Assembly: GCA_016873805.1 (NCBI GenBank)
Contig: VGVZ01000001.1
Location: forward strand, 62,001-126,000
DNA length: 64,000 nt
Direction of reading: 5' to 3'
Origin: Ignavibacteria bacterium
GTDB lineage: Bacteria > Bacteroidota > Ignavibacteria > UBA10030
Below, one piece after another: positions 54,781 to 55,884 of this stretch. The number at the start of each line of letters is the position of its first letter. Within the stretch, counting starts at the first letter, position 1. Both the position numbers and the translations under genes were made by a program. The notes under the pieces are model-generated. The model had not been told where the DNA came from. It did not search any database and saw only the letters and a program-made list of their open reading frames with translations.

Positions 54781-55257
54781 TTACGACGGCTTTATGAGAA
54801 ACAGCGGCTGATTGTATTCCACCGGCTTCGCGTTTTCGACGAGGATTTTGACAATCTCACCATCAAGATCGGATTCGATTTCATTCATAAGCTTCATTGC
54901 CTCCACGATGCAAAGGACAGAGCCCCGGCGGATCTTGTGGCCAACCTCCACATAGGGATCGGCATCCGGCGAGGGGGCCCGATAGAAGGTGCCCACAATG
55001 GGGGATCGAATCTCATGGTATGACTGCTCTGCTTTCGAAGGGGCGGGTGTCGGCGCTGGTGCGGCGGCAGGGGTTGGAGGGGGCGCAACCGGCATTGCCG
55101 GCGGAGGCGCCTGCGGGAGGGAAATGTGGTGAACCGGGGCCTGCACCGGCTGGTGCTTGGCAATACGGATCTTCTTTCCTTCTTCCTCCACTTCGATCTC
55201 GTCGACACCACTGTTCTCGATGAGCTTGATCAGCTTCTTGATGTACGCCAGTTCCAT
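54781..55257 (-). CDS. accB: Biotin carboxyl carrier protein of acetyl-CoA carboxylase
   Basis: 158 aa. A short helical N-terminus ([20 protein letters not shown]) is followed by a Pro/Ala-rich flexible linker (about 45-75) and the biotinyl domain with the modified Lys in [12 protein letters not shown]. The thumb region is present ([20 protein letters not shown]). Partner of AccC next door; the transcarboxylase subunits are not in the window. Confidence 0.97.
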
Positions 55258-55320: not shown

Positions 55321-55884
55321 CTACATCTTCGCCCGCTCCAGGTATTGGCCCGTTCGAGTGTCCACTTTGATCGTATCCCCCTCATTGATGAACAGCGGCA
55401 CATTGACTATGGCGCCGGTCTCCACCGTTGCCGGCTTCGTTGCCCCGGTGGCGGTATCTCCCTTTACCCCAGGGACTGTTTCGACGACCTTGAGGAGGAC
55501 GTTGAACGGGATTTCCGCCGCGACCACGTCCGTACCGACCATCATCAGTTGGATCGTCTCTCCCTCCTTGATGAATTTCGCCCCGTCTCCGATGATCGAC
55601 TCATCGACCGGGATCTGTTCGTATGTCTCTTTGTCCATCAATTGATAGCTCGAACCGTCATGGTAGAGGAACTGGAATTCTTTCTGCTCCATCCGCACCT
55701 CTTCCACCTCCTCCCCCGATCGAAACCTATTCTCCGTTGTCTTCCCCGTCTTGATATTCCGAAGTTTAGCTTGAACGAATGCCCGGAGATTCCCCGGCGT
55801 GCGATGGATGTATTCGTCAATGCGGTGCAGCTCGCCGTTGAACCTGATCACCATACCAACACGAAAATCAGAAGTTGTCGCCAT
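55321..55884 (-). CDS. efp: Translation elongation factor P with PGN-type tip
   Basis: 187 aa, usual length, three OB-like domains. EF-P enters the E site and rescues ribosomes stalled on proline runs. The domain I loop that normally carries a modified Lys (E. coli K34, PGKGQAF) or Arg (Pseudomonas R32, SGRNAAV) reads TPGNLRAFVQAKLRN, with Asn32 at the tip and Arg34 two residues later. So neither EpmA- nor EarP-type modification is expected. First gene of the operon, with promoter 55949-55977. Confidence 0.96.
   Translation of the reverse strand: MATTSDFRVGMVIRFNGELHRIDEYIHRTPGNLRAFVQAKLRNIKTGKTTENRFRSGEEVEEVRMEQKEFQFLYHDGSSYQLMDKETYEQIPVDESIIGDGAKFIKEGETIQLMMVGTDVVAAEIPFNVLLKVVETVPGVKGDTATGATKPATVETGAIVNVPLFINEGDTIKVDTRTGQYLERAKM

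Follow-up and report, generated by a model that had tools for sequence, protein, structure and literature searches.

The window analysed here, a stretch of 64,000 nucleotides of contig VGVZ01000001.1 of an Ignavibacteria bacterium whose genome is 3.2 Mb in size and 99% complete, carries on its minus strand a gene for elongation factor P (EF-P), the factor that gets ribosomes past proline runs. The next gene on the same strand is one that we take to encode an AccB-like biotin carboxyl carrier protein, and the gene after that, again on the same strand, is presumably AccC-like. The features of the locus are as follows, with positions in the loop counted from its tip:

54781-55257, minus strand: AccB-like gene with two PPP runs, an open reading frame next to efp
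55321-55884, minus strand: efp, elongation factor P of the Asn-tip type, 187 amino acids, from the open reading frame with ATG start and its translation
55780-55800, minus strand: beta3-beta4 loop, T29-A35 (TPGNLRA), from the sequence, between two strands of the model
55789-55791, minus strand: codon AAT of Asn32, the loop tip, at the position of E. coli Lys34 by sequence and alignments
55783-55785, minus strand: codon CGG of Arg34, at +2 from the tip, a position that is Arg in 100/100 distinct Asn-type and 1/66 Lys-type proteins

The product of this gene is an EF-P in family and fold. All three Pfam domains of EF-P (EFP_N, EFP and Elong-fact-P_C) were matched, and the protein scored 233.7 bits on the EF-P equivalog model TIGR00038, above its cut-off of 185.8. 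An AlphaFold2 model, for which an alignment of 44 sequences served as input, had a mean pLDDT of 88.9 and matched the fold of ribosome-bound EF-P (4v6a) over 175 residues with a Z score of 19.9 and an rmsd of 1.5; the Z scores for other solved EF-Ps were 20.6 (1ueb) and 17.4 (6enj). In this model, whose strand assignment is numbered one below the protein, a seven-residue loop comprises exactly residues 29-35 with strands on both sides and, since Asn32 is the fourth of these seven residues, it forms the tip. A sequence search of the PDB with the protein returned 12 distinct EF-P sequences, and PGKG was found in all five that were displayed residue by residue.

The tip residue was typed in two samples of EF-Ps, both collected through their similarity to a query of the Asn type, so that the following shares are not natural frequencies: Asn 75, Lys 24, Gln 5 and Arg 2 among 106 EF-Ps from relatives and a survey of the phylum, and Lys 42, Asn 32 and Arg 6 among 80 named loci. 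Loci L003, L004, L005, L026, L031-L033 and L110, which were non-EF-P, duplicate stretches or loop-less, were omitted from the alignment of the relatives and the phylum. The combined set of 186 rows amounts to 179 distinct proteins, 100 of the Asn type and 66 of the Lys type. The block [TN]-P-G-N-[LWK]-R-[AG] is present in every one of the 100 Asn-type proteins, with Pro at -2, Gly at -1 and Arg at +2 invariant (each 100/100), Thr (79) or Asn (21) at -3 and Leu (73), Trp (22) or Lys (5) at +1, and there were 0 cases in this sample of an Asn tip without [LWK]-R after it. Three of the five rows with Lys at +1 (L140, L142 and L189) are positioned outside the main Asn clade. The 66 Lys-type proteins, including two (L187 and L192) whose loop alignment is unsure owing to a gap at -1, have Lys at -3 in 65 cases, Gly at +1 in 64 and Arg at +2 in only one. 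The loop of these two proteins, both from Chloroflexota MAGs, reads VKTKKSAV and is one residue shorter, with two lysines. Outside the loop, the top difference between the types lies at position 53 (Arg in 93/100 Asn-type versus Thr in 54/66 Lys-type proteins) and may reflect ancestry.

At the DNA level, the tip codon was AAC in 57 and AAT in 50 of the 107 Asn-type rows, which held 71 DNA spellings of TPGNLRA and 21 of NPGNWRA. As the codons vary while the amino acids of the loop stay, the loop is under strong constraint. The presence in many genomes, the use of both Asn codons and the 71 spellings of TPGNLRA likewise indicate that Asn32 is neither chance nor a sequencing error, and the Asn tip is kept through the family and the order and much of the phylum. 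The block is common to many uncultured relatives, several of which, in the same family, have EF-Ps identical to those of named MAGs deposited as Ignavibacteria/Ignavibacteriales or Bacteroidia, so that the source is presumably an uncultured member of the Bacteroidota as defined by GTDB. A rough count of patterns in 395 phylum genomes gave 165 with the Asn block and 213 with PGKGxAF, tallies that include some genomes fitting both patterns as well as some chance matches, e.g. a terminator-like AAGCCCGG...TTTT in families f27 and f38. Matches to the Lys pattern in genomes G293, G200 (two), G058 and G304 were rejected on reading as non-EF-P. Outside the Bacteroidota the block was carried by four of the 80 named loci, labelled, according to the record titles of the MAGs, as Acidobacteria (L155 and L189), Auribacterota (L163) and Sumerlaeia (L170).

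A preliminary description of this DNA had pointed to an Asn at the loop tip with Arg34 nearby. The sequence, the model and the alignment with related EF-Ps bear out both: the tip position of the window EF-P holds Asn and no Lys or Arg, and the Arg stands at +2 as in all distinct Asn-type proteins. The description had also framed the tip as a matter of this lineage. The Asn is real, but not peculiar to it, because EF-Ps with this tip belong to an already known minority class, which makes up 2.23% of 1166 EF-Ps and always has Pro at -2 (Volkwein 2019, PMC6544042). The window EF-P has both traits of that class. The same article gives frequency and proline co-occurrence; the present analysis adds that [LWK]-R is coupled to the Asn tip, that Lys is lost from -3 and that the block has switched (see below). 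PMC11611912 lists Asn, Gln, Met, Ser and Gly as tips. In the open-licence literature, a search yielded neither work on the function of an Asn-type EF-P nor any account of the coupled block. What is new here is the block rule, together with the duplicated pair of family f23 (see below), whereas the Asn-tip class itself was already catalogued.

The Lys-type loop KPGKGxA depends on EpmA in E. coli and on YmfI in B. subtilis. Among 21 genomes, i.e. the window genome and 20 relatives, neither EpmA nor EpmB was found above cut-off in any, and the same was true of YmfI, for which the best matches reached 222.8 bits in the window genome and 232.8 in a relative at a cut-off of 238. The best EpmA matches below cut-off, in frames of about 500-590 amino acids, appear to resemble lysyl-tRNA synthetase. 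EarP was found in 0/21 genomes, a weak negative since the control genomes gave no match either. Over the 395 phylum genomes, Lys-type or Asn-type, EpmA again scored above cut-off in none, whereas both controls, E. coli and Caulobacter, gave a match. Since Lys-type genomes of the phylum are also without EpmA, its absence neither singles out nor explains the Asn type. About half of the 395 genomes fit the Lys-tip pattern, yet none has EpmA above cut-off. A KamA-like protein, kept in 21/21 genomes, was considered as EpmB and rejected: it scored 235.4 against 369.3 as EpmB, did better as lysine 2,3-aminomutase (442.8 against 525.4, still below cut-off) and is adjoined by a GNAT gene. At locus L195 (2052-4834, G000:C49) the genes for the KamA-like aminomutase, a GNAT protein and an ATP-grasp ligase are contiguous on one strand and resemble beta-lysine osmolyte genes. 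Because of the best score as aminomutase and the GNAT neighbour, the KamA-like protein fits osmolyte synthesis better.

These searches bear on the possibility that an enzyme not yet known modifies Asn32 or Arg34, with the invariant block as its recognition site. Invariance in 100/100 proteins is what would be expected of an enzyme substrate, and the Lys-type Bacteroidota without EpmA suggest that undescribed EF-P chemistry may exist in the phylum. On the other hand, no candidate emerged among the enzymes searched, the KamA-like protein included, and EarP (0/21, with no match in the controls) targets a tip Arg in loops without a proline at -2 (PMC6544042), the position that is Pro in 100/100 Asn-type proteins. 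We consider modification by such an enzyme unlikely. The preliminary description had set the protein apart from the known Lys- and Arg-modifying systems, which agrees with the results for EpmA, EpmB and YmfI and, more weakly, for EarP, but the absence of EpmA is not distinctive. It had further offered either an unmodified EF-P or modification of another residue such as Arg34; the former is favoured here, and the latter is without support because EarP loops avoid the -2 Pro (PMC6544042) that all Asn-type proteins have.

The window genome encodes a second EF-P (G000:C38, L004 9613-10185, minus strand), a divergent paralogue of 33% identity that passes TIGR00038 narrowly (189.4 versus 185.8). Its loop, RHAGSGQMQGF, has a Gln tip and is one residue longer before the tip; a Gln tip without a -2 Pro accords with the class of Gln-tip EF-Ps in Volkwein 2019 (PMC6544042). 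This second protein is present in 5/21 genomes, namely the window genome and four of the 20 relatives, with differing neighbour genes. The short-chain dehydrogenase gene directly after it was rejected as a YmfI partner, with a score of 147.1 versus 238 and no such adjacency in the four relatives inspected. With regard to the demand for EF-P, a mechanical set of 55 non-overlapping open reading frames of the window contained 50 PP runs, six of them PPP or longer, and two of these six sit in the AccB-like protein beside efp. The DNA pattern for PPPNVTG of ValS had no match in the window genome, where ValS itself is spelled PPPNITG. As the ValS motif and the PPP runs of the window show, polyproline demand persists in this genome.

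Against this background, the Asn-type protein might have lost polyproline rescue and serve another role, with the second EF-P or an ABCF protein rescuing stalled ribosomes. The Gln-tip paralogue would suit such a division, as would the finding that E. coli EF-P with K34N, like that with K34A, K34M or K34Q, is inactive (PMC6544042). The paralogue, however, occurs in only five of the 21 genomes and is itself without a Lys or Arg tip, the Asn-type loop is strongly constrained, and the PPP motifs are still there, so that we regard a loss of rescue as quite improbable.

The history of the two loop types was analysed with trees built without the loop columns and for which no root was inferred. With the Asn label mapped on a FastTree phylogeny of all 186 rows, eight changes were counted, at least four of them forced by starred branches. 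A quick IQ-TREE analysis of 69 of these rows (less than 70% mutual identity, more than 150 residues) gave nine changes, at least two of them forced, and a 79-row tree, from which L207 and the five Gln-tip rows with their long branch were omitted, nine and at least three. The AU test rejected a tree in which a single branch sets the Asn rows apart from the rest, with model-dependent p-values of 1e-56 overall and 1.7e-9 within the Bacteroidota. Families f7, f14 and f17 form a Lys-type clade (97% support) that the 79-row tree nests among Asn-type rows (91% and 91%); since the FastTree phylogeny places it as sister to the Asn clade (99%), its position inside the Asn type is not certain.

Genomes of family f23, in the same phylum, carry efp twice. 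The duplicates are tandem in two of these genomes (L203 and L204) and dispersed in others (L205-L209), with one copy reading HRTPGNLRAFYQ (PGNLRAF) and the other HRTPGKGGAFY. In the 79-row tree, the six Lys copies form a clade (98%) beside the Asn copies (87%), and the pair, joined at 99%, is grouped with Asn-type outgroups (98%). On a parsimony reading of these unrooted trees, the Lys copy would have arisen from an Asn copy after duplication, with N-L-R going to K-G-G as one change. Taken together, there are at least two well-supported switches between Asn-type and Lys-type blocks inside the phylum. A test for coupling by independent pairs yielded just two pairs on starred branches, below what significance needs, and the coupling therefore rests on the 100/100 versus 1/66 for Arg at +2 and on the block switches. 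Neutral drift of the tip, with EF-P modification no longer needed and flanking residues of little weight, might account for searched modification genes that are absent or below cut-off, but would not fix -2, -1 and +2 in 100/100 proteins nor switch the block jointly in duplicates; because the block is conserved, we consider drift very improbable.

Two proteins that branch among the Asn-type rows have other tips: L087 (G143), which reads RTPGKGRAS, has Lys there and Arg at +2, and L086 (G373), which reads RFMGRGSGF, has Arg. One genome encodes both an Arg-tip EF-P, VQTGRGGAY (L073, G210:C26), and an Asn-tip EF-P (L053).

With Lys-type EF-Ps the window protein has in common the domains, the fold, the seven-residue loop, the -2 Pro and the -1 Gly, but Thr/Asn stands in place of Lys at -3, Asn in place of the tip Lys and Leu/Trp/Lys in place of Gly at +1, and Arg is added at +2. 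It thus falls outside the EpmA-dependent Lys type by its Asn32 tip and by EpmA in 0/21 and 0/395 genomes, and outside the EarP-dependent Arg type by its Asn tip and Pro30 at -2; the genome likewise falls outside the YmfI (5-aminopentanol) system (best match 222.8 versus 238). EfpL (YeiP) is excluded by scores of 131.9 versus 216 and 125.9 versus 264.05 and by the loop of seven. An actinobacterial subfamily of EF-P retains the Lys tip and has a Pro after PGKG. Its members are reported to be active unmodified by means of a stiffer loop (Pinheiro 2020 as cited in PMC11611912), and activity without modification is what they would share with the Asn type proposed here. EfpL, whose loop is extended, is active with an Arg that carries no modification (PMC11611912), which is probably a likeness to the window EF-P with its Arg near the tip, although in EfpL the Arg is at the tip and the loop is two residues longer.

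We consider it moderately probable that the Asn-type protein is a working EF-P whose tip stays unmodified and in which Arg34 and Leu/Trp33 take over the tRNA contact. This reading is based on the family and fold match, the invariance of the block, its synonymous spellings and the persisting PPP demand, as well as on EpmA in 0/395 genomes, the switch in the f23 duplicates, the rejection by the AU test and the precedent of EfpL (PMC11611912). The Asn-type EF-P would occupy the ribosomal E site and stabilise the P-site prolyl-tRNA as other EF-Ps do, with a loop built for an unmodified tip, in which the lysines at -3 and the tip have given way to Thr/Asn and Asn and the Asn is followed by a bulky Leu/Trp (sometimes Lys) and the invariant Arg. 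Asn32 would give the turn its shape, and Leu/Trp33 would brace Arg34, which instead of a modified lysine would touch the CCA end of the tRNA; both the unmodified tip and the contact by Arg34 are what we infer. Several points argue against this reading. E. coli K34N is inactive, although this mutant is a tip-only change that keeps G35 and Q36 intact (PMC6544042), Asn32 or Arg34 could be the substrate of some other enzyme, and the +2 Arg could be structural, away from the tRNA. Moreover, the Lys-type genomes of the phylum are also without EpmA, and five Asn-type proteins have a modifiable Lys at +1.

EF-P is usually thought to depend on a costly, lineage-specific modification. The EF-P of this bacterium probably works without the usual one. 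More tentatively, and with a chance that we put at slightly below even, [TN]PGN[LWK]R[AG] may represent a third EF-P solution beside modified Lys and modified Arg, i.e. an encoded, modification-free Asn-Leu/Trp-Arg unit that spans the Bacteroidota, extends to MAGs with the labels of at least three other phyla and has changed places with PGKGG as one unit, also in duplicates within the same cell. As both loop types occur together in f23 genomes, these offer a natural pair for a side-by-side comparison of the loops. If the natural loop suffices, swapping loops in E. coli would put the need for modification to the test, and a full swap would be more telling than K34N, as the Asn of nature always comes with [LWK]-R in this sample. 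An EF-P whose activity is encoded would then also be a possible simple tool for the cell-free synthesis of proline-rich proteins.
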